From: Nitrospirales bacterium
Lineage (GTDB): Bacteria; Nitrospirota; Nitrospiria; Nitrospirales; UBA8639
Assembly: GCA_021604005.1 (NCBI GenBank)
Contig: BQIV01000009.1
Span: 1 to 64,000 of the forward strand
Length of the DNA: 64,000 nucleotides
Direction: 5' to 3'
The translations under genes and the position numbers were made by a program. The notes beneath the pieces were generated by a model. It saw only the letters and a list, made by a program, of their open reading frames with translations, had not been told where the DNA came from and did no database searches. Of this stretch, positions 34,105 through 52,312 are shown piece by piece; positions within the stretch are counted from its first letter, which is position 1, and every line of letters starts with the position of its first letter.

Positions 34105-34143
34105 GCATTTTTCCCCATTTATACTTATATGAGGAGGCATGTT

Positions 34144-35034
34144 ATGCAAAGAGGAATGTTACGCGCTGGAATTACCCTAGGACTTGGGTTGACCCTACTT
34201 GCTGGGCTCGACACATCGCCAACAGTTCATGCCATGGAAGCGCTTGAAGCCGAGGAAGGGATGGAGTTTGGCTATGATGCGCCGGATGTGACACCTGATC
34301 AGTGGAATACACTCGCTCCCCTCTGCGGGAACGGGAAAGAACAATCGCCGGTTGATCTTAGCCAGTCAAAACTCACTCCCCGTCAGGAACGAGTCAGACT
34401 GCGAGATCAGAGAAATCTGAAGTTCTCATACCATGAAACACCTCTTGAAATTTTCAACAACGGACATACAGTAGAAGTTGAGTATGAACCAGGAAGTACG
34501 TTACGGCTAGAAAAGTTCGGCTCGGTATTTGATGTACGGCAATTTCACTTTCATAGTCCTTCTGAACATTCGTTTGAACACGGCGCGCTCTTTGATGTGG
34601 AAATTCACATCGTGCACAACCGGCAAGACGATCCATCGCAACTTGCAGTGGTCGCATTACTAGTCAAAGAAGGCCAAGAAAATGTGGCCCTCAAGCCAGT
34701 CTTCGATCACTTGGATGCCGTCATGAACAAAGGAGATCATTTTGTTGGAACCGAAGAAGTCAACATTGCCGATCTTCTCCCCAAAGATCAACGATACTTT
34801 GGCTACATGGGCTCACTCACAACCCCTCCATGTACCGAAAAAGTAAAATGGCATGTCCTTCGAATCCCCATCGAACTATCGCGCGAACAGATTAATCAGC
34901 TCATTGCGGTCTTTGACAATTCCTGTTGTCCCATCCACGGGAACAATCGACCAACCCAATCGATAAACGCCAGAGCACTCGTACTGGACAAGAATACGTT
35001 TTCAGATTCAAATGACAAGGAGGATGACGACTAG
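34144..35034 (+). CDS. Periplasmic alpha-type carbonic anhydrase
   Basis: A 296-residue enzyme from ATG 34144, six bases after GAGGAGG. The signal peptide (MLRAGITLGLGLTLLAGLDTSPTVHA) places it in the periplasm. The alpha-class pattern is complete: LCGNGKEQSPVDL, then the zinc ligands H135 and H137 in QFHFHSPSEH and H155 in EIHIVH, and GSLTTPPCTEKVKWHVL near the C-terminus (substrate pocket Thr). It interconverts CO2 and bicarbonate. Its place 3-5 kb upstream of a SulP transporter and DabA suggests a role in inorganic carbon supply for autotrophy; this is an inference. The C-terminal ~20 residues are acidic. Confidence 0.95.
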   Translation: MQRGMLRAGITLGLGLTLLAGLDTSPTVHAMEALEAEEGMEFGYDAPDVTPDQWNTLAPLCGNGKEQSPVDLSQSKLTPRQERVRLRDQRNLKFSYHETPLEIFNNGHTVEVEYEPGSTLRLEKFGSVFDVRQFHFHSPSEHSFEHGALFDVEIHIVHNRQDDPSQLAVVALLVKEGQENVALKPVFDHLDAVMNKGDHFVGTEEVNIADLLPKDQRYFGYMGSLTTPPCTEKVKWHVLRIPIELSREQINQLIAVFDNSCCPIHGNNRPTQSINARALVLDKNTFSDSNDKEDDD

Positions 35035-37934: not shown

Positions 37935-39575
37935 ATGATTTCAGAAACTCCATCAATTCCTAGGGGAACACTTTCAGAATTTCCCAAGAACTGGAAAGCT
38001 GACTTGATTTCAGGCTTTCTGGTCTTCCTGATTGCCCTACCCCTATGCTTGGGCATTGCATTAGCATGTGGGTACCCTGCCATCGCCGGCATCTTTACCG
38101 CAATTGTCGGCGGAACGATTGCCACATTCTTTAGCAACTCTGAACTGACGATCAAGGGACCCGCCGCAGGCCTCATTGTCATCGCCATTGGATGCGTCAC
38201 CGAATTTGGCTTCACCGGTGGAAAAGATCCAGACCTTGACTATCAAGCCTACAGACTGGCGCTGGGAGTCGGCGTCGCCGCCGGAATATTTCAAATTTTC
38301 TTTGGCATGTTTCGCGCCGGAATTTTGGGAGAATTTTTTCCATCATCGGCAGTCCACGGTCTTCTCGCAGCCATTGGCATCATTATCATGGCCAAACAAT
38401 TTCCCATTGCACTGGGAGTGAGTCCAGAGGGCAAGCCTCTCGAGATAATCGCTAAAATTCCACAATTCGTGTTGGAAATGAATCCACTTGTCGGACTGAT
38501 TGGGCTCATCAGCCTGATCATTATGTTTGGCTACCTGTTTATCAACAATCCTAAACTGAAAGTTATTCCGGCTCCCATGATGGTCCTGTTCGTCACAGTC
38601 CCGCTTGCCATATTCTTTGATTTCAGCCAGGAACAAACCTACACATTTAATGGGCAAGACTACCCCCTGGGCAAAAGCTTTCTCGTTGCCGTGCCGGAGA
38701 GCATGTTCGGCGCAATCACGCTTCCCGATTTTTCTGGACTAACAACCACCACCGGCTGGAAATACGTGCTCATGTTTGCACTGATTGGCAGTATTGAATC
38801 CTTGTTGAGCGCGAAGGCGATCGATAGCGTTGATCCATGGAAACGAAAGACCAACCACGATCAAGACATGTTAGCCGTTGGCGTCGGCAATACCATCGCC
38901 GCGTTCATTGGCGGACTTCCGATGATTTCAGAAATTGTGAGGAGCAAGGCCAATATCGACAACGGAGCACGCACTCGATTTTCAAACGCATTCCATGGGT
39001 TATTCCTCCTCTTCTTTGTGGCATTGCTGCCTGGCGTAATCAATCAAATCCCCCTTGCCGCACTTGGAGCAATGCTGGTTTTTACCGGATTTCGCCTCGC
39101 GTCTCCTCAAGAATTCATTCACACATATCAGGTGGGGAAAGAACAATTCATTATTTTTGTCTCGACAGTCGTTGGCGTGCTAGCCACCGATTTATTGATG
39201 GGTATTGCTATTGGCATTTTCGTGAATATCCTTCTGCATTTGAAAAATGGCGCACCGGCTTCGTCCCTTTTTAAACCACAAATCAGCGTCCAACGAGATG
39301 GGAAAACAGGCGTCACCGTCAAAGTCAAAGACTCGGCGATTTTCAGTACATGGATTGCGCTCAAGAAAACGCTGGAGCAATTTCCTGAAGAACCACGCGT
39401 GACATTGGATTTGTCTGAAACATATCTTGTCGACCATACAACAATGGGCAAACTCCAGGAAATGGAAAAAACCTTTAAGGAGCGAGATGCGACGCTGTAC
39501 ATTACAGGATTAGAATATCATCAACCTCTGTCAAACCATCCGGAAGCCGGACGGAAGAAAGCAAGACTAGGCTAG
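37935..39575 (+). CDS. SulP-family anion (probably bicarbonate) transporter with STAS domain
   Basis: A 546-residue transporter. After a short N-terminal region, [46 protein letters not shown] is the usual start of the SulP domain; about ten to twelve membrane segments follow, with [52 protein letters not shown] and [40 protein letters not shown]. The C-terminal STAS domain ([18 protein letters not shown]) is about 100 residues long. SulP proteins move sulfate, bicarbonate or other anions. Position 47 nt before dabA and near a carbonic anhydrase gene favours bicarbonate; the substrate is not proven by sequence. Confidence 0.92.
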   Translation: [546 protein letters not shown]

Positions 39576-39622: not shown

Positions 39623-42600
39623 ATGATATCCGAAACGACAAGAGATCACACCAATACGCTCTCTTCTGAAACACGCGAGTACCTGCGTCAGGTCATTCAA
39701 GAGGCCAGCGAACCCATCGCCCCGTTTTGGCCAATGAAGACCATGGTTGCGCAAAACCCCATTCATGGCTTGGAATATCTCCCTTTTGATGAAGCCGTGC
39801 AAAAGGGGCGTCAGCTGCTTGGAGGCCATGGGTATCTACCGAATCACGAGTATCGCCAACTGTATCACCAGGGACGCATCACTTCCGCGAGTCTTACGCA
39901 AGCATTCGCGAGAGCCGGGCCTCGATACGACCAACAGGCTTCCCTCGACATAGGAAGCCGCCAGATTACGGCCAAAGACGTATGGCAATTCCATATTGTG
40001 TTTGGATGTGAAGCCTTAGATCCCGTACTCCAGCAGTGGGAATTCAGCAACGGCGAAGCGACTAAGCGATTTCGCCATGACCTTCCAGAAGCATCTCAAA
40101 AACGAATTATCGAGCAAACAATCAAAGAGTGTGAACATTGTCGAGAATATCCAGAGGAAGCCTACCTCACGAATCTCTGGAAATGCACATTAGCCTCGTT
40201 GGCGCTTGATCATCCTCGTTCTGACAATCATCAAGCAGTTGGAGCCAAGACTCACGCATCGGACAGCCCACCACCATCCATTGAGATTACCCTGCCAGCG
40301 CAACGGACAATGAGCGATTGGGTCGATAGCTTAGCCGGCAGTCGCCTCGTTGAGCAGATCAACAACCAACTGATTAAATGGATTTCGACATTTGTGGACG
40401 AAGGGCTAGCGGCATGGGAAATGCCGCAACGGCGGGAAGGGTTTTATCGAGCATGGCAGGAACTGGCACAACATGATCATTCGGCAAAATTTCTGGGCAT
40501 TCACGGGTTTAACAAAAAAATCTCCGATCTCCCATCAGACCCCGAAGACGCGCTGGCTGACAATCTCCATCGTCTTGGCATTCCACAGGAGCGCTGGCGA
40601 GACTATCTCTCACGTCAGTTATCACAATTACCAGGCTGGGCCAGATACGTACGTTGGCTTGGAGAACACCCCACGTATCATGCGCAGCGACAACATCCCA
40701 TCGATACCACGCAGTACCTTGCCGTACGTCTGTTTTACGAAGTGGAATTGACGCACGTTACCTGCCAGCAAGCATGGGACATTGACGGAACACTGTCAGC
40801 CCTCTGCGCGTATTGGCAGAGTCACATGGATGACTACCAGAATAAAATGTCGAATGGGGGACAGGCCGTTCCCCCGCTACAACAGGCGATCTGTCATGAT
40901 GCGTGGCGATTATTTCATCTTGCTCAATTTTTTGAACTCTCTCCCATAGACGTACAAGACCTGCCACTCTCTGATGCTCAACACTTACTCGATTGGCTCG
41001 ATGTCTTTCCGTCAGATCGGCATGGACCGGTATGGCTCGAAGCCTATGAAGAAAATTTCCGCAGAGACTTTCTTCAAAAACTTGCTTCCCATCAAGGGGG
41101 AGACTCAACAGAACATATTCGCCCACAGGCACAACTCGTGTTCTGCATCGATGTACGATCGGAGTCGTTCCGCCGCCACATTGAAGCCCAAGGTCCATAT
41201 GAGACGTTCGGGTTTGCTGGGTTTTTTGGCATTCCGATTAGCCATCAAGCCTTTGACAGTGAGGAACGGGCAATTCTGTGTCCCGTCTTACTCTCTCCCA
41301 ATCACGCGGTGTCGGAACAGCCTCGATCAGGAGAACATGAAGCATTACAGAAATATTCTTCCGGCACCCGATGGCAACAATTAGGACATCGGCTATTTCA
41401 CGATCTTAAACATAATCCTGTCGGATCATTGATGCTCATTGATCTCTTAGGCGTATTCTTTAGTGTCGGATTGGTAGGCAAGACACTCGTCCAAAAACCG
41501 TTTCATGCATTCATCTCAGCAATGCAACGATGGGTACGAACCCCGGTTCCGACGCAAATTTCAGTCTCACCCCCTGCCGACAGTCAACATCCAGAACAGC
41601 AAGACAGCAAGGCTAAAGCCCTCCCCCCTGAGCTGGCACACGGCTTCACACTCACGGAGCAGGCCACATTTATCGAAAACGGACTTCGCGCGATGGGACT
41701 GACGAAGAATTTTGGCCGCTTTGTCGTACTCTGTGGCCATGGGAGCGAAACAGACAATAATCCGTATTATGGCGCATTGGATTGTGGAGCATGCGGAGGC
41801 AATCCCGGCGATGTCAATGCGCGTGTGTTTGCCACCATGGCCAACAACCCAGCCGTCAGGAAAATCTTGCACGAGAATGGACTCGCCATTCCCGATGACA
41901 CCTGGTTCCTCCCCGGAAAACATAATACAACGACGGATCGAGTGATCTTTTATGATATCGAAGAGTTACCTATGAGTCATGTGACGGATTTACGGGAACT
42001 ACAGAAAGGTCTCGAATATGCGGGCATGAATCAAGCACTGGAACGCTGTCAACGCATCCCTCAAACGCCAACCAGTCTTTCTCCTGAACAAGCCTTTACC
42101 CATGTTGAGAGGCGAAGTTTCGACTGGGCAAACCCTCGACCTGAATGGGGACTCGCTGGCAATGCCGTCTTCTTAATAGGCAGGCGAACGCTCACGAAAG
42201 GGCATGATTTAGGAGGCCGAGTCTTTTTGCATTCCTATGACCCTCTATCAGACAACGAAGGCGCCATCCTCGAAAAAATTATGACCGCACCATTAATCGT
42301 GGGCGAATGGATTAACACGGGGTACTACTTTTCCGGCGTTGACCCATGGCACTATGGAAGTGGCAGCAAAGTACTACATAATGTAGTCTCAGGCGTGGGC
42401 GTGATGTTGGGAAGCCAAAGTGATTTACAAATGGGGTTTCCCTTACAGACTGTGAATGATGGCGAAACCCATTACCACGAACCAATGCGATTGCTAGCCA
42501 TTATTGAAGCATCTCCACACATCATCTCGTCGATTATTCATAAACATGACATTTTACAGCAACTCTTTCATAACCAATGGATGAACCTTGTTGCCCTAGA

Positions 42601-42676
42601 CCCGAAAACGTGTGAACGACATCGGTACAATCCGGATGCGACATGGGAAGTCATTCACGGAGAGCCATCGTTATGA
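39623..42676 (+). CDS. dabA: DabA-type inorganic carbon transport protein (DUF2309)
   Basis: A 1017-residue protein of the DUF2309/DabA family. Its beta-carbonic-anhydrase-like zinc ligands are all present: C508 and D510 in VFCIDVRSE, H706 in VVLCGHGSE, C721 in ALDCGACGG (15 residues after H706, as in Halothiobacillus DabA2, by recollection). PFWPMKTMVAQNPIHGLEYLPFDEA near the N-terminus is another conserved block. DabA works with a NuoL-like membrane subunit DabB to drive energy-coupled uptake and hydration of CO2. No separate dabB is next to it; instead sulP precedes it and an Mrp/Nuo-like operon begins 450 nt later. The start ATG 39623 lies 47 nt after sulP. Insertion regions relative to shorter DabA proteins are visible around residues 200-240 and 650-670. 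Confidence 0.93.
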   Translation: MISETTRDHTNTLSSETREYLRQVIQEASEPIAPFWPMKTMVAQNPIHGLEYLPFDEAVQKGRQLLGGHGYLPNHEYRQLYHQGRITSASLTQAFARAGPRYDQQASLDIGSRQITAKDVWQFHIVFGCEALDPVLQQWEFSNGEATKRFRHDLPEASQKRIIEQTIKECEHCREYPEEAYLTNLWKCTLASLALDHPRSDNHQAVGAKTHASDSPPPSIEITLPAQRTMSDWVDSLAGSRLVEQINNQLIKWISTFVDEGLAAWEMPQRREGFYRAWQELAQHDHSAKFLGIHGFNKKISDLPSDPEDALADNLHRLGIPQERWRDYLSRQLSQLPGWARYVRWLGEHPTYHAQRQHPIDTTQYLAVRLFYEVELTHVTCQQAWDIDGTLSALCAYWQSHMDDYQNKMSNGGQAVPPLQQAICHDAWRLFHLAQFFELSPIDVQDLPLSDAQHLLDWLDVFPSDRHGPVWLEAYEENFRRDFLQKLASHQGGDSTEHIRPQAQLVFCIDVRSESFRRHIEAQGPYETFGFAGFFGIPISHQAFDSEERAILCPVLLSPNHAVSEQPRSGEHEALQKYSSGTRWQQLGHRLFHDLKHNPVGSLMLIDLLGVFFSVGLVGKTLVQKPFHAFISAMQRWVRTPVPTQISVSPPADSQHPEQQDSKAKALPPELAHGFTLTEQATFIENGLRAMGLTKNFGRFVVLCGHGSETDNNPYYGALDCGACGGNPGDVNARVFATMANNPAVRKILHENGLAIPDDTWFLPGKHNTTTDRVIFYDIEELPMSHVTDLRELQKGLEYAGMNQALERCQRIPQTPTSLSPEQAFTHVERRSFDWANPRPEWGLAGNAVFLIGRRTLTKGHDLGGRVFLHSYDPLSDNEGAILEKIMTAPLIVGEWINTGYYFSGVDPWHYGSGSKVLHNVVSGVGVMLGSQSDLQMGFPLQTVNDGETHYHEPMRLLAIIEASPHIISSIIHKHDILQQLFHNQWMNLVALDPKTCERHRYNPDATWEVIHGEPSL

Positions 42677-43126: not shown

Positions 43127-43621
43127 ATGAGGCCCGTCTCCTCTCAATTTTTATTGCTGAAGGCAACGGCATTGTTCGTGTTATGGATAATGTTGTCCGG
43201 CAGTTTTAATTGGATTCATCTGCTATTAGGCGCCACAGCTTCATTATTGATCGCTTGGATCAATTCTGGGCATTCGCCCTTTGTTCCAAATTTTCGCATC
43301 TGGGGAAAGACGATCCTGTTTCTTCCCTGGCTTTTTTCGCGAATTGTCCACAGCACACTACATGTGACAAAACTAATCCTCAATCCCAAGCTCCCCATTT
43401 CTCCCAAGCTCCTTCATGTGAAAACGAATTTACGCAATCGAGCAGCCGTGGTTCTGCTGGGAAATTCCATTACGTTGACCCCAGGAACGATCACGGCTGA
43501 AGTTGATGATTCCACGCTCATTGTTCATACCCTTGATGACGTGTCAAGCGAGGACGTCAGAAGTGGCCGGTTAGAAGGCAAAATTGCGTCGGTCTTTGGG
43601 AATGGAGATACCAGTCCATGA
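43127..43621 (+). CDS. mnhE: Mrp/Mnh antiporter subunit E-like protein
   Basis: A 164-residue membrane protein from ATG 43127 (GAAAGAG ribosome site). Three hydrophobic segments are followed by a hydrophilic C-terminal half. NWIHLLLGATASLLIAWINS, ILNPKLPISPKLLHVKTNLRNRAAVVLLGNSITLTPGTITAEVDDSTLIVHTLDD matches the MnhE/MrpE pattern, where NSITLTPGT is nearly invariant. MrpE is required for assembly of the multisubunit Na+/H+ antiporter. First gene of the mnhE-F-G-...-nuoM operon, next gene overlapping by 4 nt. Confidence 0.9.
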   Translation: MRPVSSQFLLLKATALFVLWIMLSGSFNWIHLLLGATASLLIAWINSGHSPFVPNFRIWGKTILFLPWLFSRIVHSTLHVTKLILNPKLPISPKLLHVKTNLRNRAAVVLLGNSITLTPGTITAEVDDSTLIVHTLDDVSSEDVRSGRLEGKIASVFGNGDTSP

Positions 43622-43884
43622 ATACCTTCTTCCTCTTTGTGTTACTCACGCTTGCGGTATTAATCGGAGCGTATTTATATCGCGTGCTTCAGGGACCGAC
43701 GATTTTTGATCGCGTGTTGGGCCTCAATGGCATATCCACAAAAGCGATTATTTTACTCATACTGATTGGGAGCGTGCATGAACGGGTCGACATGTTCATC
43801 GATATCTCAACCGGCTATGCACTCTTGAATCTCGTCGGGGCCTTGGCCGTCGCCAAATACCTCGAGCAAAAGGGACTTCCGTAA
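43618..43884 (+). CDS. mnhF: Mrp/Mnh antiporter subunit F-like protein
   Basis: An 88-residue protein with three hydrophobic helices and the MrpF motif YRVLQGPTIFDRVLGLNGISTKAIILLI, followed by DISTGYALLNLVGALAVAKYLEQKG. It overlaps mnhE by 4 nt and is 1 nt from mnhG. It is one of the small subunits of the cation/proton antiporter module, also found as MbhB-type subunits of membrane-bound hydrogenases. Confidence 0.92.
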   Translation: MNTFFLFVLLTLAVLIGAYLYRVLQGPTIFDRVLGLNGISTKAIILLILIGSVHERVDMFIDISTGYALLNLVGALAVAKYLEQKGLP

Positions 43885-43885
43885 C

Positions 43886-44185
43886 ATGGATGTGCTCGCG
43901 GTCATCTTTATTCTCGCCGGACTCTTTTTTCTGGTTGTGGCGGCCATTGGGGTTATACGGCTCCCTGATGTATTTACGCGCTCGCATGCGGTCTCGATCA
44001 CGGATTCTCTTGGAGCCTTTTTGATGCTTATAGGCATTGCCATCCATGAAGGCTTCAGCTTAAACGTCCTCAAAATTTTGGCCGTCTTGGCTTTACTCTA
44101 CCTTCAAAATCCGGTGATTGCCCATGCGACCGTTCGCGCAGCCCTTCGTGCAGGGTTGAAACCCTGGCAAAGAGAATCGACATGA
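43886..44185 (+). CDS. mnhG: Mrp/Mnh antiporter subunit G-like protein
   Basis: A 99-residue protein with three hydrophobic helices. FLVVAAIGVIRLPDVFTRSHAVSITDSLGAFLMLIGIAIHEG is the MrpG core; the family phrase is GxxRxPDxxxRxHAxxxxDTLG. It is followed by the C-terminal helix LALLYLQNPVIAHATVRAALRAG. It sits between mnhF and the DUF4040 gene with a 4-nt overlap at its end. It is a small membrane subunit of the antiporter module. Confidence 0.92.
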   Translation: MDVLAVIFILAGLFFLVVAAIGVIRLPDVFTRSHAVSITDSLGAFLMLIGIAIHEGFSLNVLKILAVLALLYLQNPVIAHATVRAALRAGLKPWQREST

Positions 44186-44712
44186 TATTTTCATTTGAAA
44201 TTCCACTGCTCATTCTCTTACTGCTGACAGCCGCTGGAGCCATTTTAGTCAAAGACCTCATGAGCGCCATATTACTGTTAGGCTGTTACAGTTTTTTCTT
44301 ATCGCTTGTCTGGGCATGGCTGGGAGCCGTGGATGTCGCCTTCGTCGAGGCCGTCGTGGGCGCAGGCCTTGCCACGGTCTTATTTCTCTTGACACTGTTC
44401 GGAACAGCGCCGAAAGACAGTCGCCTTCGCCGCCCTCCGCCGCCCATGGCTGCGCTGATTGGGCTCCCCCTACTGGGAATTTTATTACTGTATGCCGCAA
44501 AGGACCTCCCCCAATTTGGTGATCCGAATTCTCCGGCGAATTCTCATATTTCTCCTACCTATCTCGAACAGAGCTTTCACGATACACACACCCCGAATGT
44601 CGTCACGTCTGTCCTCATGGACTATCGATCGCTGGATACGATGGTCGAGACCGTTGTGATTTTTACCGCCGGTATTGCCTGCGTACTCTTATTGCGGAGA
44701 AAAGCCTCATGA
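44182..44712 (+). CDS. MbhD/MbhE-like (DUF4040) subunit, homologous to the MrpA C-terminus
   Basis: A 176-residue protein with about five hydrophobic helices. PLLILLLLTAAGAILVKDLMSAILLLGCYSFFLSLVWAWLGAVDVAFVEAVVGAGLATVLFL is the DUF4040/MbhD domain, related to NuoJ. The second half, with NVVTSVLMDYRSLDTMVETVVIFTAGIACVLLL, resembles MbhE. In Mrp antiporters these two domains form the C-terminal end of the large MrpA; here they are a free-standing protein and a NuoL is encoded separately. Overlaps mnhG and mnhB by 4 nt each. Confidence 0.85.
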   Translation: MIFSFEIPLLILLLLTAAGAILVKDLMSAILLLGCYSFFLSLVWAWLGAVDVAFVEAVVGAGLATVLFLLTLFGTAPKDSRLRRPPPPMAALIGLPLLGILLLYAAKDLPQFGDPNSPANSHISPTYLEQSFHDTHTPNVVTSVLMDYRSLDTMVETVVIFTAGIACVLLLRRKAS

Positions 44713-45161
44713 TTCGGCCACATGACAGCATCATCGTGCAATCGTTGGGGAGATTTCTCATTCCCGTCATTCAACTCTTTGGCCTCTATGTCCTATTTTT
44801 TGGACAGTATGGGCCGGGAGGAGGGTTTGTCGGCGGCGTCATTTTAGGCACCAGCATGGTCCTGGCCATTCTCGTCTTCGGTCATGATGCATCACGAAGC
44901 CAATTATCAAAGAAAGCCTTGCACGGAGACGGCCTTGGCATGCTGATTTTTGCAGGTGTCGGCGGACTGTGTTTGATCGGAGGTGGGGAATTTCTCAATT
45001 ATGCCCATTTACACATTCCAGGCCTTGAAATCGCCGCCCGCCGGTCACTCGGCATCGTATTGACGCAAATTGGCGTTGCCATCGATGTCGCCGTGACGGC
45101 CATATCCATCGTCTTCAGCTTATCCGCCGAAGAAATCATTGAGGATTCAACAAATGGTTGA
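44709..45161 (+). CDS. mnhB: Mrp/Mnh antiporter subunit B-like protein
   Basis: A 150-residue protein with four hydrophobic helices. IQLFGLYVLFFGQYGPGGGFVGGVILGTSMVLAILVFG is the MnhB core with its glycine-rich loop HxxPGGGFxGG (here YGPGGGFVGG). GGLCLIGGGEFLNYAHL and the last helix (LTQIGVAIDVAVTAISIVFSL) complete the fold. It overlaps both neighbours (4 nt with the DUF4040 gene, 8 nt with mnhC), so the operon is translationally coupled. Confidence 0.92.
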   Translation: MIRPHDSIIVQSLGRFLIPVIQLFGLYVLFFGQYGPGGGFVGGVILGTSMVLAILVFGHDASRSQLSKKALHGDGLGMLIFAGVGGLCLIGGGEFLNYAHLHIPGLEIAARRSLGIVLTQIGVAIDVAVTAISIVFSLSAEEIIEDSTNG

Positions 45162-45531
45162 TGTCATGTCGGCCCTCTTTCAACGCCCAAATTTTCTGAT
45201 TTTTGTCATTATATTTCTTTGGGGACTTTACATCATGGTCACGCGCTACAACCTGGTCAAAAAACTTGTCGGCATGTATCTCGTGCAAACCAGCGTCATC
45301 TTTTTTCTCGTATCGATCAGCGCCAAGAAAGGGGCGACGGTGCCGATCTTGCGGTCAACCACAGACACGGTCAATGCCATCGACTACAGCAATCCGTTGC
45401 CGCACGTCTTGACCTTGACCGCAATTGTGGTGGGAGTGGCAACCCTTGGCGTCGCCTTAGCCTTGTGTTCGGCCATCTATCGAACGTACGGGAGTCTTGA
45501 CGAAGAAGACATTTTGAAAAGACTAGAATGA
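45154..45531 (+). CDS. mnhC: Mrp/Mnh antiporter subunit C-like (NuoK-type) protein
   Basis: A 125-residue protein with three hydrophobic helices. ATG 45154 follows GAGGA with 8-nt spacing; an upstream TTG at 45139 is less likely. YNLVKKLVGMYLVQTSVIFFLVSISAKKGATVPIL, then NPLPHVLTLTAIVVGVATLGVALALCSAIYRTYGSLDEEDI are the MnhC blocks related to NuoK, including the acidic end. It forms the thin side of the proton-path subunits. The start overlaps mnhB and the stop overlaps mnhD by 4 nt. Confidence 0.92.
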   Translation: MVDVMSALFQRPNFLIFVIIFLWGLYIMVTRYNLVKKLVGMYLVQTSVIFFLVSISAKKGATVPILRSTTDTVNAIDYSNPLPHVLTLTAIVVGVATLGVALALCSAIYRTYGSLDEEDILKRLE

Positions 45532-46997
45532 GTCGACACATTCCAGCTCTCCTCTTTCTACTTCCGTTGTTTGCAGCCATTTCAATGCCAATGGCCTGCT
45601 TGAAACACCGAGAATGGAGCCGCCCGCTTGCCATCAGCGTGCTTGGCACCATGATCGGGCTTTCGCTCGTGAATCTGTCTTTCGTGTTGGAACACGGAGC
45701 CATCCACTACGACTTTAGTGGATGGGCGGCGCCTCTCGGCATTGAGTGGGTCGCTGACCCGTTAGCCAGCCTCATTCTCGTGGCATTAAGCTTTTTAGGT
45801 TTCGTGGCGTTGATATTCGCTGGAGCGGGAGAACCTAAAAACCTTGGCGGTCGAATCGTTCATTTCTATGTATTAATCCTACTGCTTATTTCGGCTCTCA
45901 CCGGAATTGTCTTTGCTGGAGATTTATTTAACCTGTTTGTGTTCCTTGAAGTGGCCGCGCTCTCCAGCTACGCCCTCGTGGGTGTCGCCGGTGGACGGGC
46001 CTTGTTCGCCGCCTTTCGCTATCTCATCTTAGGCACATTGGGAGCGTCCCTGTATTTACTGGGTGTCAGTTACTTCTATGCGGCAAGCGGCACGCTCAAC
46101 ATGGCGGATATGGCCGACAAGCTTCCCCACCTACTGATATCAAGGGCGGTTGTCGGCGGCCTCTTGTTTATGTTTATCGGACTGGGCATCAAAATGGCTC
46201 TCGTTCCCTTTCATGCGTGGCTTCCAGATGCGTATTCCAGTGCACCGGAATCCGTTTCGCCTATTTTAGCGTCGCTCGTCACAAAGGTGGCACTCCTCGG
46301 ATGGGTGAGAATCATCTTTTGGGTCTTGGGTGCGCAAGCGGTGCTTCAAGACATTCCAGTCCTGTTACTGATTGGCGTGCTAGGCGCACTTGCAACTGTC
46401 ATCGGTGCCGTGCTCGCATTCACACAGCATGAGATCAAACGCATGTTTGCCTACGGAGGAATCTCCCATATCGGCATTATTCTCATTGGCGTGAGTCAGG
46501 GAAATCAAACAGGATTTGCCGGCGGCATCTTCTACTTATTAAATGATGCCGTCATGCAAGCCGCCTTGTTTTTCTTTATCGGAATCGTCATTTTCCAATA
46601 TGGCATTCGCCATGTTGAGGATCTTGGTCAGATGGGCAAGCAGGCTCCTTGGCTGATCGGATCCCTTGTCATCATGGCAATGGGGATGATCGGCCTTCCG
46701 CCTACCGGCGGTTTTTTTGGAAAGTGGTACATCATTTTAGGTGCGCTCGAAGCCGACAACTATGTTGCCGTTGGAGCCATTTTGCTTTCAACATTGCTCA
46801 CGTTGGCCTATTTCGTCAAAATCTTCGAGCACCTGTTTCGGACACCCGCCACCGTTACGAATCCACAGGCTGTTGAAACGCCCGTCGCCTTCCAGTTCAG
46901 TGTCTTGGTGACCTCAGCGGCCATCCTCATTCTCGGCTTGGGAAGCGATCCTATTGTTGGCCTCATACTCAACCACGCGCTTCCTCCGGGACTGTGA
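45528..46997 (+). CDS. mnhD: Mrp/Mnh antiporter subunit D-like (NuoN/NuoM-type) protein
   Basis: A 489-residue polytopic protein of the proton-antiporter superfamily (NuoL/M/N type). It has about fourteen membrane helices; the central domain has FAGDLFNLFVFLEVAALSSYALVGVAG (proton-pump Glu on helix 5), FHAWLPDAYSSAPESVSPILASLVTKVALLGWVRI (Lys on helix 7/8) and FTQHEIKRMFAYGGISHIGII. It could pump protons or sodium. In the operon it precedes nuoL by 8 nt. Being between mnhC and nuoL, it acts as the D-type or N-type channel of a hybrid complex. Confidence 0.9.
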   Translation: MSRHIPALLFLLPLFAAISMPMACLKHREWSRPLAISVLGTMIGLSLVNLSFVLEHGAIHYDFSGWAAPLGIEWVADPLASLILVALSFLGFVALIFAGAGEPKNLGGRIVHFYVLILLLISALTGIVFAGDLFNLFVFLEVAALSSYALVGVAGGRALFAAFRYLILGTLGASLYLLGVSYFYAASGTLNMADMADKLPHLLISRAVVGGLLFMFIGLGIKMALVPFHAWLPDAYSSAPESVSPILASLVTKVALLGWVRIIFWVLGAQAVLQDIPVLLLIGVLGALATVIGAVLAFTQHEIKRMFAYGGISHIGIILIGVSQGNQTGFAGGIFYLLNDAVMQAALFFFIGIVIFQYGIRHVEDLGQMGKQAPWLIGSLVIMAMGMIGLPPTGGFFGKWYIILGALEADNYVAVGAILLSTLLTLAYFVKIFEHLFRTPATVTNPQAVETPVAFQFSVLVTSAAILILGLGSDPIVGLILNHALPPGL

Positions 46998-47005
46998 GGA
47001 ATACG

Positions 47006-49102
47006 ATGTCTATGTTTGCGCTCATCCCACTTCTCCCGCTTTTCGCCTCGCTTGCGCTGGTGCTCGGGGGGGCGCGATGGAGAGAACACGGGCACCGTGT
47101 CGGAATTCCTGCTATTGGCCTTTCCTTCGCATTGTCTGTCTGGGCATGTGTCGAGGTGATACAACATGGCCCTATCTCTATCTCCCTATACCGCCTCTTT
47201 CAATCCGGGTCGCTTATCATTGACTTAGGAATGTACATCGATCAACTCACCGTATTGCTCCTCTTGTTGGTGACGGGAGTCAGCGGCGTGGTGCATGTCT
47301 ATTCGTCCAACTATATGATTGGTGATCCCCGGTATAACCGATTTTTTGCCGTCATCGCGTTGTTTACCTTTTCCATGTTGATGCTAGTCAGCAGCACCAA
47401 CCTGCTCATGTTGTTTATCTGTTGGGAAATCATGGGCATGTGCTCGTACCTTTTGATCTCCCATTGGTCAGAACGGCCATCCGCATGCCGGGCAGCGACA
47501 AAAGCGTTTTTAGTCAACGCTGTCGCCGATGTCGGCTTAGGATTTGGTATCATTCTGACCTTTTTCACATTTGGAACACTCGACATTCAACATATTGTGT
47601 CTCAAACACAGAGCATGCAAGAACAAACGATTAATGTCCTCGAATGGGCCGGTCTTGATCTTCACGTGTATTCACTGACCATCATTCCAATCTGTATATT
47701 GATAGGGGCAATGGGAAAATCCGCACAAATGCCGTTTCATGTCTGGCTGCCATTTGCCATGGAAGCCCCCACACCCGTTTCCGCGTTGATTCATGCGGCC
47801 ACCATGGTGAATGCCGGCCCGTTTCTTCTGATTCGATTAAGTCCCTTAATCGTCCTCTCCCCCTTCGCCATGACGATCATCGCCGTGGTCGGAGCCGTAA
47901 CCGCACTGTTTGCCGCTATTGTCTCTTTAACTCAAAGCGACATAAAGAAGGTCCTAGCCTATTCAACCATGAGTCACATTGGGTTTATGATCATGACATG
48001 CGGAATTGGGGCATTCGTGGCAGCGACATTTCATTTGCTTGCCCATGGCTGTTTGAAAGCGTTTTTATTTTTATCGACCGGCAATACCCTTCGTACGGCC
48101 TCATCCCACCATTCACATGTCGACACACAACACGGAACACCTTCGCAGGCACCAACATCGCTCTATGCCGGAGCGTTCATCTTGGCCTGCCTTCCACCCT
48201 TTATTATTTTCTCCGGTCCCTATGAGTCCGTATGGATTGCACAGAATTTTGTGTCCGCCAAGATCGGGTTTTGGATAATCGGTCTTACAACAGTATTTTT
48301 TACCGCCATGTATCTGTTTCAAGGAATTATATCGATTTTTCAACATGCACCGGTCAAACCTGATCCAACAAATCCATTATCAAAAGCCGCACAGCCTCAA
48401 ATATTTTCGCCTGCTCACCTGTTAGGGATCTGTATTGGGGGAGGGTTCATGGCCATGGTCCTCTTGGCCGCATGGACGTGGTTTGCACAATTTCTTACGC
48501 CGGCCTTTTCCGTAACCACGCCACGTGCCATGGAAGCCTTCGAAGAAACTTCTCCAGGATTCGGTCCTTGGATTATTCTCCCTCTTTTCGCGGCAATCGG
48601 AGGATGGGCCTACGCGTTGTCGAGATACCGGCGATCGAGTCACCCGTCGGCTAAACAATCAAAATTCATGCAAACACTGTATGTCACATTCTTAAACAAA
48701 GGGTATTTCGACGAGCTATACGAATTGTATATTGTTCAGCCAACGCTTCGATTCGCCAACTGGCTCTGGCGGATTGTTGATGTTCGCGGGATTGATGCAG
48801 CCATTCATATGATCGCAACATCTTCTCTCCTTTTTGCTCGATGGCTTTGGAGAGTCATCGATGTGCAAGGCATTGATCGTGCCGTGATCGGCATTGGACA
48901 ACACAGTATTGGACTGAGTCGTTGGCTATGGCGAGTCGTAGACGTTCGGTGGTTGGATCACAATATGAGCGAAATGGGGAAACGCGCCGATGCAGCAGGA
49001 GAATTGCTGCAAGAAGTTGAATCACGCACAATTCAACATCAATTACTCGTCATGGTGTTTTGGCTTGTTCTCGCGACCGGAATATTGTACCTCTTGATCT
49101 GA
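47006..49102 (+). CDS. nuoL: NuoL/MrpA-like proton channel subunit with triplicated C-terminal motif
   Basis: A 698-residue membrane protein from ATG 47006 (GAGGA ribosome site; GTG 46994 is alternative). The proton-antiporter domain has LLMLFICWEIMGMCSYLLISHWSERPSACRAATKAFLVN (pump Glu), MPFHVWLPFAMEAPTPVSALIHAATMVNAGPFLL (Lys/His line) and LTQSDIKKVLAYSTMSHIGFMI. It resembles NuoL, including a long C-terminal part. In that part the tryptophan motif LWRIVDVRGID / LWRVIDVQGID / LWRVVDVRWLD repeats at W586, W613 and W640, exactly 27 residues apart. After that a last helix (LLVMVFWLVLATGILYLLI) closes the protein. It may serve as the DabB-like partner of DabA, or as NuoL of a hybrid complex; the sequence does not decide. 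Confidence 0.9.
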   Translation: MSMFALIPLLPLFASLALVLGGARWREHGHRVGIPAIGLSFALSVWACVEVIQHGPISISLYRLFQSGSLIIDLGMYIDQLTVLLLLLVTGVSGVVHVYSSNYMIGDPRYNRFFAVIALFTFSMLMLVSSTNLLMLFICWEIMGMCSYLLISHWSERPSACRAATKAFLVNAVADVGLGFGIILTFFTFGTLDIQHIVSQTQSMQEQTINVLEWAGLDLHVYSLTIIPICILIGAMGKSAQMPFHVWLPFAMEAPTPVSALIHAATMVNAGPFLLIRLSPLIVLSPFAMTIIAVVGAVTALFAAIVSLTQSDIKKVLAYSTMSHIGFMIMTCGIGAFVAATFHLLAHGCLKAFLFLSTGNTLRTASSHHSHVDTQHGTPSQAPTSLYAGAFILACLPPFIIFSGPYESVWIAQNFVSAKIGFWIIGLTTVFFTAMYLFQGIISIFQHAPVKPDPTNPLSKAAQPQIFSPAHLLGICIGGGFMAMVLLAAWTWFAQFLTPAFSVTTPRAMEAFEETSPGFGPWIILPLFAAIGGWAYALSRYRRSSHPSAKQSKFMQTLYVTFLNKGYFDELYELYIVQPTLRFANWLWRIVDVRGIDAAIHMIATSSLLFARWLWRVIDVQGIDRAVIGIGQHSIGLSRWLWRVVDVRWLDHNMSEMGKRADAAGELLQEVESRTIQHQLLVMVFWLVLATGILYLLI

Positions 49103-49159
49103 CATATTCGTGATTTTGTCGCTCGTATTTCGTATCTCGTGGAAAAAGAGAACGTCGCT

Positions 49160-49277
49160 CGTCGCTCGTGAAGCGTATCTCGTACTTCGTAAAAGGCAAA
49201 GACCGTAAGGCCAAGACCTGCGAGGCAAGGGGCACAACATATTCTTTTCTTCCACGAGATACGCTTCACGAGCGACG
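49160..49277. repeat. Long inverted repeat of the TCGTATCTCGT family, between nuoL and nuoM
   Basis: The 24-bp arms at 49160-49183 and 49254-49277 are perfectly complementary and contain the core GCGTATCTCGT. The loop is 70 bases. Shorter TCGTATTTCGTATCTCGT stretches precede it at about 49122-49140. It lies wholly within the 231-base gap between nuoL and nuoM. A stable RNA hairpin or a protein-binding site is possible. Confidence 0.85.
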
Positions 49278-49333
49278 AAATCACGTCAGGATCGACAAGG
49301 AAGATATTTCTAAAAAGATAGGGAACGTCCAAG

Positions 49334-50839
49334 ATGGCGATTTTCGCGGATCATATGATCAGTTGGATGGTAGCAATACCCTTTGTGGGAATTGTTCTGC
49401 TCGCGCTTGTTCGCGATCAAGAGTGGATTCGGCGAATTACCTTGGGAACGTCAATCACCGAATTTGGATTGAGTCTCATCTTATGTCTCAATTTTGACTT
49501 CACCCAACAGGGCTTGCAATTTGTCGAGCGAGTAGCCTGGATGCCTACGTTTCACATTCAATATGCTGTTGGAGTTGACGGCATCAGCATTCTACTCGTG
49601 CTCTTGACAACACTTCTCTGTCCTTTGTGTGTCCTATGCTCTTGGAATTCCATCACAACTCGTGTCCGCGCGTTTATGTCGCTGATTCTGCTGGTTGAAG
49701 GGGCCATGATCGTCGTCTTTACGGCCCTCGACCTCTTTCTCTTTTTCATGTTGTGGGAACTCACGATGATTCCCATGTATTTCATGATTATTCTCTGGGG
49801 AGGTCCCAATCGAAGCGCAGCCGGAATTAAATTTGTCCTATACAGTCTCACGGGAAGTTTATTATTACTCGTCGGCATATTGGGTCTGTACCTCGAAGGC
49901 GGCCACACCTATGACCTGCTCGTGTTGAGCCAACACACCTATTCCCCAACCGTCCAGTTTTGGTTGTTCTTAGCCCTGTTCCTCGCCTTTGCCATCAAAA
50001 TGCCGATGGTCCCATTCCATACATGGCTACCAGATGCCCATTCCGAAGCGCCAACCGCCGGGAGCGTCATTCTCGCAGGCATACTCTTAAAAATGGGCGG
50101 TTATGGGTTTTTGCGATTTTGTCTGCCGATGTTTCCCGATGCTTCGGCGATGTTTGCTCCCTACATTCTCTGGTTATCCGTCTTTGCTATTGTCTACGGC
50201 GGGTACATGGCGTTGGCACAATCGGATCTGAAAAAATTGATTGCCTACTCATCCGTGTCACATATGGGCTTCGTCACGCTGGGAATTTTTGTGTTCAACA
50301 GTCAAGGCATTCAAGGCGCCATCCTGCAAATGTTCAATCACGGACTCACAACGGGAGCCTTATTTATTTCCGTCGGACAATTATACGACCGGACTCACAG
50401 CCGGGCCATCGATGACTATGGGGGCTTGCATAAACCCATGCCGAGATTTGTCACATTTTTCTTTCTGTTTTCGGTTGCGGCGTTCGGCCTCCCCGGCACC
50501 TGTAATTTTATTGGAGAATTTCTGGTGCTTGTCGGGACATCTTCCACAAGTTTCGCGATGGTCCTTCTGTCCATGGGCGGCATCGTCTTAGCGGCAGCCT
50601 ACATGCTATGGATGCTACAAAAGGTTGCATTGGGCGAACCCAATACAAAAGCTGCAGCGGTCTTGCCCGACCTCTCGAAGCGGGAATTGATGACTGTCAT
50701 TCCACTAGCCATCCTGGTATTGTGGATTGGGCTATACCCCAGCCCCTTAATGGAAATGATGGATGCAAGTGTGACGAATCTCGTCGAGCATATGGCCACC
50801 ATCTCGCCACAGATGGCGTTGATTTCAAGTTGGCCATGA
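49334..50839 (+). CDS. nuoM: NuoM-like complex I membrane subunit
   Basis: A 501-residue NuoM-type protein of about fourteen helices. Recognisable blocks: FHIQYAVGVDGISILLVLLTTLLCP, LDLFLFFMLWELTMIPMYFMIILWGG (pump Glu), FAIKMPMVPFHTWLPDAHSEAPTAGSVILAGILLKMGGYGFLRF (Lys), ALAQSDLKKLIAYSSVSHMGFV and LPGTCNFIGEFLVL. This is the standard complex I NuoM sequence rather than an MrpD sequence. It follows nuoL after a 231-base gap containing an inverted repeat. Whether it belongs to the same complex as the mnh genes or to a complex I encoded partly at 61.8 kb is open. Confidence 0.93.
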   Translation: MAIFADHMISWMVAIPFVGIVLLALVRDQEWIRRITLGTSITEFGLSLILCLNFDFTQQGLQFVERVAWMPTFHIQYAVGVDGISILLVLLTTLLCPLCVLCSWNSITTRVRAFMSLILLVEGAMIVVFTALDLFLFFMLWELTMIPMYFMIILWGGPNRSAAGIKFVLYSLTGSLLLLVGILGLYLEGGHTYDLLVLSQHTYSPTVQFWLFLALFLAFAIKMPMVPFHTWLPDAHSEAPTAGSVILAGILLKMGGYGFLRFCLPMFPDASAMFAPYILWLSVFAIVYGGYMALAQSDLKKLIAYSSVSHMGFVTLGIFVFNSQGIQGAILQMFNHGLTTGALFISVGQLYDRTHSRAIDDYGGLHKPMPRFVTFFFLFSVAAFGLPGTCNFIGEFLVLVGTSSTSFAMVLLSMGGIVLAAAYMLWMLQKVALGEPNTKAAAVLPDLSKRELMTVIPLAILVLWIGLYPSPLMEMMDASVTNLVEHMATISPQMALISSWP

Positions 50840-50938: not shown

Positions 50939-51610
50939 ATGACACAACCTCGGCCTCTCACACATGATGAAAAGAAGGCTTCGGAAGCGGCATTCCGGGG
51001 ACTGCCATTTAATCCCAAATGGTCTCAGTCGGCAAAAGCCGTATACGATGGGATTATGGCCACATTAGATAAATCGTCAACGACTTCTGCCGATACGGAT
51101 CTCTCCACTGAAACACCAGAAGAATCAAGAGAACTGGTTCCTGTACCAATGAATGAAGTGGATGTGACCACCGGAGAGCACGTCAAAACCGATATCGAAC
51201 TCATCGATGAACAATCCGTACAACAAATTCACTCACGACGCGAAGCTATCGAAGCTGGATATTTGATGGACGTCTCCGAAGAAGCAAAGAATATCGGCCT
51301 CGAACTCGCTGTAGGCATGACAAAACCCCTATGGAATCAAGGAATTTGCCCTTCGACTGATTTGTCAGACGAAGAGTTACACAACCGTATTCGTGATGTT
51401 TTGATTGCCGTTCGCTTGCGACTGGCCGGCCTTGAGACGCCAGCCGCCTTTGTGGAGGTTCCGGTCCTGCTCTCGTTCCCGCCTGAACCCACACCGCAAC
51501 TGTTCCTGATCTACGCGCTCTTTCATAAGGATCCGCTTGAAGCCGATTCACTGCTTCTGCTCCATCCAGGGGAAGTTTCTCTGGCCAAACAATCCTTTTC
51601 TGAAAACTAA
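50939..51610 (+). CDS. Unknown protein, possibly DUF6573-like
   Basis: A 223-residue soluble protein. It has a polar, low-complexity N-terminal half (TSADTDLSTETPEE) and a C-terminal domain starting SRREAIEAGYLMDVSEEAKNIGLELAVGMTKPLWNQGICPS. The pattern SR-x-x-AI-x-x-G-x-L-x-DVSExA-x-x-G resembles DUF6573 proteins, many of which are plasmid- or phage-associated, but I am not certain. ATG with TAAGG ribosome site. It begins 99 nt after nuoM, with a possible own promoter (TTGACA at 50904). Function unknown. Confidence 0.7.
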   Translation: MTQPRPLTHDEKKASEAAFRGLPFNPKWSQSAKAVYDGIMATLDKSSTTSADTDLSTETPEESRELVPVPMNEVDVTTGEHVKTDIELIDEQSVQQIHSRREAIEAGYLMDVSEEAKNIGLELAVGMTKPLWNQGICPSTDLSDEELHNRIRDVLIAVRLRLAGLETPAAFVEVPVLLSFPPEPTPQLFLIYALFHKDPLEADSLLLLHPGEVSLAKQSFSEN

Positions 51611-51836: not shown

Positions 51837-51877
51837 ATGAGGCCTCACGAGTTTGGTCATTTGAAGTGAGTACAACG

Positions 51878-52312
51878 ATGGATAAAACCCTTTGGCTGAA
51901 CCTTAATGCCGTCCTCGGAAGTCTGGTCGTGACGATTGGGCTTTGGATGTTACTTGGGACATTAGCGCTTCCGCTGGGAGTCGTCATCGCCCTAGGCGTC
52001 GCAGGTCTGCTAGCATGGAAATGTCCAAGCATCGGACATGTATGGATCGTGACGACATTGATCTTAGGGATCGAGAGTTTGGCCTGGCCCGTCATTCAAA
52101 TGGTGGACCTTCAAAAACTTGGCCCGGAACCCCCGCTGGAAGATCTTCAACGAATTTTTACAGCCGTGATGTTCGGTCTGTTTTCCGGAGTCTTCTGGAT
52201 GACCTTTGCATATGGAATTTATAAGCGAACCAAAGGCGAACCGCCTTTACCTGAATCAACCAATCAACCTGCAACCGGGAAAAAACGGAAAAAGTCAAAA
52301 CGAAAACAGTAA
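51878..52312 (+). CDS. Small membrane protein of unknown function
   Basis: A 144-residue protein from ATG 51878; a GTG at 51866 would add four residues. Four hydrophobic segments are visible: NAVLGSLVVTIGLWMLLGTL, LPLGVVIALGVAGLLAW, HVWIVTTLILGIESLAW and IFTAVMFGLFSGVFWMTFAYGIY. The C-terminal tail is strongly basic (GKKRKKSKRKQ). I do not recognise the family. It is flanked on both sides by hairpins of the TCGTATCTCGT family, and its stop is about 130 nt from the 3' end of the convergent priA-like gene. Confidence 0.65.
   Translation: MDKTLWLNLNAVLGSLVVTIGLWMLLGTLALPLGVVIALGVAGLLAWKCPSIGHVWIVTTLILGIESLAWPVIQMVDLQKLGPEPPLEDLQRIFTAVMFGLFSGVFWMTFAYGIYKRTKGEPPLPESTNQPATGKKRKKSKRKQ

Follow-up and report, generated by a model that had tools for sequence, protein, structure and literature searches.

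A NuoL-like subunit with a lateral helix lengthened by 27-residue repeats in a conserved DabA-Mrp-NuoL-NuoM operon of Nitrospirales and other bacteria

Introduction

A NuoL-like, or DabB-like, antiporter subunit of 702 residues, encoded on the forward strand at 46994..49102 of the window (the whole 64,000-nucleotide stretch of Nitrospirales DNA analysed here), carries three tandem 27-residue units at the site of the NuoL lateral helix (HL), and its gene belongs not to a complex I cluster but to a ten-gene operon with dabA, mrp genes and nuoM that is conserved in three phyla. We consider it probable that the protein is a NuoL/DabB-type subunit of a ten-gene hybrid complex, in which HL would serve as a modular, repeat-lengthened strap joining a DabA-bearing NuoL to antiporter-like subunits and an Mrp module; assembly of all ten products into a single complex is suggested, indirectly, by the conserved order of their genes. 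The purpose of the lateral helix of complex I, as piston, clamp or ruler, has long been disputed. The operon family provides a natural graded series, from 1 to 5 whole units at constant gene content, together with relatives that lack one module, and thereby makes the function of the lateral helix directly testable.

The repeated unit and its place in the protein

The open reading frame (PF00361 and PF00662; TIGR01974) starts at a GTG, with a 4-bp overlap onto the stop of mnhD, and has an alternative ATG at 47006; the tryptophans that mark the units are W590, W617 and W644 when counted from the GTG, and W586, W613 and W640 when counted from the ATG. With a period of exactly 27 residues or 81 bp, the motif L-W-R-[IV]-[VI]-D-V-[RQ]-x-[IL]-D recurs in three units: unit 1 (WLWRIVDVRGIDAAIHMIATSSLLFAR, 48761..48841, forward strand), unit 2 (WLWRVIDVQGIDRAVIGIGQHSIGLSR, 48842..48922, forward) and unit 3 (WLWRVVDVRWLDHNMSEMGKRADAAGE, 48923..49003, forward). 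Unit 3 is the last, and its second half has changed in the direction of the TM16 cap. The initial annotation spoke of three exact repeats: the spacing is indeed exact, but the sequences are only 9-13/27 alike, pairwise identities among the three being 13/27, 9/27 and 9/27 residues (8/11, 8/11 and 7/11 in the motif core) and 40/81, 36/81 and 42/81 nucleotides (10/27, 7/27 and 11/27 at third codon positions). The periodicity is nevertheless far from what composition would give, as the lag-27 self-match of 28/84 (0.33) in the 111-residue C-terminal stretch was equalled in none of 20,000 shuffles that preserved the composition of this stretch, with all lags from 8 to 44 scanned and a largest shuffled value of 0.24. 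A DNA-level repeat finder run on the window did not detect the three units, consistent with an old duplication. Being homologous yet far from identical, they point to a duplication that is old and undatable from DNA, so that the proposed alignment of the three units at the DNA level yields identities (36-42/81 nucleotides) but no date. The internal duplication first suggested is borne out and was in frame, and the homologues hold the 27-residue period exactly.

All three units fall between TM15 and TM16, which is the HL site of NuoL. The HL linker, measured from a conserved D-E-x-Y to the QH of TM16 (48722..49033, forward strand), comprises 104 residues, or 50 + 2x27, and leads into the TM16 anchor ESRTIQHQLLVMVFWLVLATGILYLLI (49019..49099, forward), whose QH is shared by all 37 Mrp-type NuoLs of our alignment A2. 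The protein scores 478 bits against TIGR01974 (NDH_I_L), above the cut-off of 407.5, and in a phmmer alignment unit 1 pairs with the one HL unit of Paracoccus NuoL. Likewise, the genome's own canonical NuoL has a single HL unit, MWKRVDVAVIDGAVNGIARG, of which unit 1 is the counterpart; on our reading of its anchor, its HL would fit 50 residues, that is, zero extra units. Together, these observations support the proposed lateral-helix position and identify the repeated unit as the ordinary HL unit of NuoL, copied in tandem. Elsewhere the protein departs from canonical NuoL, in that the TM12 Lys-Asp pair (FSKD) is replaced by GPYE, nearly invariantly across NuoLs of DabA-Mrp operons, a DabB-like trait since K399/D400 of NuoL are likewise replaced in DabB2 (PMC13144422).

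Structure prediction

An AlphaFold2 monomer model from 37 sequences (mean pLDDT 71) has a NuoL-like core fold, its best Foldseek matches being NuoL/ND5 chains of complex I. It shows helix over residues 568-617 (ATG numbering) at a pLDDT of about 60-76 and is mainly helical past residue 617, at about 40-60 over units 2-3; the model of a five-unit homologue (L114) gives a similar picture at lower confidence. With such low pLDDT from unit 2 onward, a single unbroken helix along the surface is no more than tentative, and the prediction, which had been proposed as a check of the initial idea, speaks neither for that idea nor against it. Moreover, 27 residues make 7.5 turns of an ideal alpha-helix, so that equivalent residues of adjacent units would face opposite ways unless the helix is kinked, and each HL unit therefore probably holds a kink; the HL of Escherichia coli has a kink region at P564 (PMC3274701). 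Hydrophobic-moment and periodicity analysis of the units was uninformative on the facing of the helix, since the 27-residue repeat itself fixes the spectral lines.

A ten-gene operon

Pfam and NCBIfam assignments give the gene order dabA, mrpE, F, G, mbhDE, mrpB, C, D, nuoL-like and nuoM, all on the forward strand, with most neighbours from mrpE to nuoL overlapping by 4 bp. DabA (39623..42676; 1017 residues; PF10070, 900.8 bits) has the zinc-ligand motifs CID, GHG (H) and DCGACGG (C), and its finger motif has Asp, as in the other operon DabAs, versus Glu in the second DabA of the source genome. There follow MnhE/MrpE (43127..43621; PF01899), the sole copy in the genome, MnhF/MrpF (43618..43884; PF04066), MnhG/MrpG (43886..44185; PF03334), an MbhD/MbhE-type protein that represents the split-off, NuoJ-like C-terminal part of MrpA (44182..44712; PF13244 and PF20501; NF009159), MnhB/MrpB (44709..45161; PF04039), the NuoK-like MnhC/MrpC (45157..45531; PF00420) and the antiporter-like MnhD/MrpD (45528..46997; PF00361), with FFGKW and hence Lys in the TM12 region. 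Beyond the NuoL-like gene lies that of a NuoM-type antiporter-like subunit (49334..50839; TIGR01972, 619 bits), with FIGEF and thus Glu in the TM12 region. The Mrp set is accordingly present from B to G, with MrpA split into the NuoL-like protein and MbhDE, and with NuoM as an extra.

Upstream of dabA, a SulP-family, BicA-like transporter gene (37935..39575, forward strand; PF00916) and a eukaryotic-type (alpha) carbonic anhydrase gene (34129-35034) form an inorganic-carbon island. Between nuoL and nuoM, an inverted-repeat element occupies 49109-49285, with perfect 25-nt arms and 44-nt outer arms at 84%; its core has 26 genomic copies at no more than 2 mismatches (control, 0), as befits a dispersed REP/MITE-like element inside the operon. 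Two small genes without assigned function downstream of nuoM, at 50939-51610 (weakly DUF6573) and 51866-52312, recur near many of the operons. The source genome and its relatives also have a second DabA system, consisting of DabA, a partial antiporter-like protein of 358 residues and a NuoL-like DabB with a short HL; in the source genome it lies on other, small contigs (G000:C70:94-2896, L055; and C84, L053), and at two loci elsewhere (L057 and L062:667-6753) it adjoins the Mrp-type operon in opposite orientation.

The first reading of the protein as the NuoL of complex I does not survive this context. Its gene is accompanied by dabA and mrp genes rather than by nuo genes (NuoB/C/D/I etc.), and the nuo clusters lie elsewhere in the genome: that of canonical complex I is on contig C27, apart from the operon, and that of 2M complex I (NuoL-M-M-N) is at G000:C9:62000-76000 (L054), on the same contig about 11 kb downstream, a separate cluster which implies that the operon's NuoL-like protein is not a 2M subunit. 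At two further loci (L088 and L092) 2M NuoB/NuoD genes also lie downstream of the DabA-Mrp operon. That the gene is a stray from complex I was rejected, given the conservation of the operon in three phyla.

Unit number among homologues

Of 396 genomes of the phylum, 30 yielded a match at E <= 1e-140; one of these matches (L083) sits in a nuo cluster instead. Named genomes, scanned with the C-terminal alignment, contributed 42 loci from Nitrospirota, Nitrospinota (Nitrospina among them) and Acidobacteriota. On contigs of sufficient length, the ten genes, their order and the single NuoM are conserved with few exceptions; at a few loci (e.g., L086 and L091) dabA is further away or was not seen in the stretch examined. 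HL, measured from D-E-x-Y to QH, is exactly 77 (n=2), 104 (n=13), 131 (n=16) or 158 (n=2) residues long in 33 of the 37 proteins of alignment A2 and one residue short (103 or 130) in the other four, lengths that follow 50 + 27n with n from 1 to 4 and correspond to 2 to 5 units. The survey of homologues proposed at the outset thus finds the period kept and the length changing in whole units, with at least two units in every one of the 37. Conservation of the unit motif (WLW-R-D-ID), over 117 units, is seen at W1 (114/117), L2 (112/117), D7 (110/117) and W3 (109/117), and D12 is conserved as well. Two proteins (L066 and L072) have the HL length of three units with the WLW-D motif largely lost in units 2-3, possibly a decay of the strap as judged from the motif.

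These numbers bear on the initial idea that the repeats extend HL in a NuoL of complex I so that it can accommodate an extra NuoM, at one repeat per added subunit. In its favour, 2M complex I and Complex_I_3 pair an HL insertion of about 26 residues with an extra pump subunit (PMC9040806), and a NuoM is present in the operon alongside MrpD. Against it, this is no nuo operon, 2M complex I is encoded by another cluster of the genome with a NuoL HL of 75 residues, and 2, 3, 4 or 5 units occur with an identical gene set. Equality of unit number and antiporter gene count was rejected on this last ground: units do not correspond one-for-one with subunits, which already contradicts the simple form of one repeat for one extra channel subunit, and we regard the idea as a whole as improbable.

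Unit number has been labile. A tree built without HL requires at least 12 changes, as the minimum under parsimony on that single tree, in which some deep forks are unsupported, compared with one change in the presence of Mrp. Several duplications are recent: units 1-2 of a Nitrospina locus (L105) are identical at 78/81 nt and units 2-3 of L095 at 76/81 nt, and further cases are found in L100 (70/81 nt) and the acidobacterial L121 (68/81 nt). Such turnover is what neutral drift in copy number would produce, through in-frame 81-bp slippage of little functional effect and with the motif kept merely for amphipathicity, and we found no correlate of having 2 rather than 5 units. Yet gains and losses involve whole units only, the motif is conserved even between units that are about 45-50% identical in nucleotides, and the minimum of two units in all 37 Mrp-type proteins stands against a single unit in most of the Mrp-less ones; we therefore think drift an unlikely explanation, if the most credible of the alternatives weighed here.

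Relatives without the Mrp module

In one clade (families f2/f4 of the order), Mrp genes are missing and the locus consists of dabA-nuoL-nuoM. MrpE, searched genome-wide in six genomes of this clade, was found in none (0/6), whereas each Mrp-type genome tested has exactly one MrpE, inside the operon. In the NuoLs of these six genomes the QH..LV motif that anchors TM16 is lost, and the unit numbers are 1, 1, 1, 1, 2 and 3, three being retained in L074 even though Mrp is absent. In a genome of the same genus as one of the Mrp-less genomes (G351), mrpE, F and G are still found next to dabA; the NuoL there retains three units, with the TM16 motif in the form QQQ-LV. A link between loss of Mrp and both the shortening of HL and the loss of the TM16 anchor is suggestive only, as it stems from one clade and one loss event.

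A proposed modular strap

How the repeats might act can be outlined as follows. DabA, a zinc protein resembling carbonic anhydrase, would dock on the NuoL-like subunit, followed in the membrane by NuoM, MrpD, MrpC and the cation module. The HL has grown as the one amphipathic unit of about 27 residues found in ordinary NuoL was copied in tandem and in frame. A helix of 27 residues spans some 40 A, about the width of one antiporter-like subunit, and each unit, if helical, could thus form one strap segment of that width. The strap would run from the DabA-bearing NuoL over NuoM and MrpD to the Mrp cation module, where TM16 would be anchored. It would tie a proton arm like that of complex I to a Na+ module like that of Mrp, so that ion flow could be coupled to vectorial hydration of CO2 by DabA. 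Surplus units may be tolerated, or may contact further parts of the module or a dimer partner. A strap reaching the small Mrp subunits would have to exceed the length of that in complex I, which fits the finding that no Mrp-type protein has fewer than two units. The proposed strap function does not account for the difference between 2 and 5 units, which may reflect drift, contacts with a dimer partner or variable stoichiometry, and a strict ruler would not predict variation at constant gene content.

That variation would be accommodated if the number of repeats set the number of stacked copies of the product of the single NuoM (or MrpD) gene, so that pump number differs while the genes stay the same; the match between one unit (about 40 A) and the width of one antiporter would fit as well. 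We know, however, of no relative of complex I or Mrp in which the same antiporter subunit is present twice in a row, and we judge such stacking very improbable. Equally improbable is an undescribed class of ion-coupled, CO2-hydrating complexes in which HL units would set the length of the membrane arm, with variable antiporter copies and a stoichiometry evolving by 81-bp duplications.

The operon also suggests that, in nitrite-oxidiser-like bacteria, a single complex may link the uptake of inorganic carbon to a sodium module of Mrp type, for which no description was found in the papers searched.

Comparison with known systems

In the literature covered, mostly outside subscription journals, searches that combined DabA/DUF2309 with Mrp, with Nitrospira or with Nitrospina yielded no account of a DabA-Mrp operon, and none of 27-residue HL repeats. 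Two published loci are very probably the same or sister ones. Operons of DUF2309 (YbcC), NuoL, NuoM and SulP make up clade C of COGNAT (PMC5700660), where the parts of the account available to us mention neither Mrp genes nor repeats, and "Candidatus Nitrospira alkalitolerans" has a locus with Mrp, NuoL/NuoM-like and BicA genes (PMC7784846), described with NuoL/M read as extra MrpA/D and with DabA and the repeats unmentioned.

The 2M complex I of Nitrospira is reportedly the subject of a 2018 study by Chadwick and colleagues. It is the system to which the initial annotation correctly pointed as having a lengthened NuoL and an extra NuoM (PMC9040806, PMC6606698), and it shares with the DabA-Mrp operon a longer NuoL HL, here by an insertion of about one unit, an antiporter-like NuoM beyond the usual set, and its occurrence in the same bacteria. 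It alone is a redox complex with NuoB/C/D/G/I, and it has neither DabA nor the small Mrp subunits. Its NuoL, of 663 residues in the source genome, has an HL of 75 residues in all 18 automatically measurable proteins; the NuoL of the window differs in having 54 rather than about 26 extra residues, one NuoM rather than two, and no nuo genes. With IIGIG/IIGYG occurring 28 residues apart in 2M NuoL, the 2M insert may itself be an old copy of the unit.

DAB2 (DabA2-DabB2; PDB 9rd0; PMC13144422) resembles the operon proteins in the zinc-ligand motifs of DabA and in a NuoL-like partner without the TM12 Lys-Asp, K399/D400 of NuoL being absent from DabB2, where a DabA residue takes over (PMC13144422). 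It differs in having two subunits, a short HL and neither Mrp nor NuoM, and in its DabA finger residue, Glu444, where the operon DabA has Asp. With the Mrp Na+/H+ antiporter (PMC7419157) the operon has in common MrpB-G, the C-terminal part of MrpA, and HL on the MrpA/NuoL-type subunit. This helix serves as a brace in the Mrp complex (PMC7419157); its counterpart in E. coli complex I acts as a clamp, not a piston, and engineered insertions in it disturb pumping (PMC3274701). What sets the operon apart from the Mrp antiporter is a split MrpA, an extra NuoM, a DabA predicted to be attached, and an HL lengthened by repeats.
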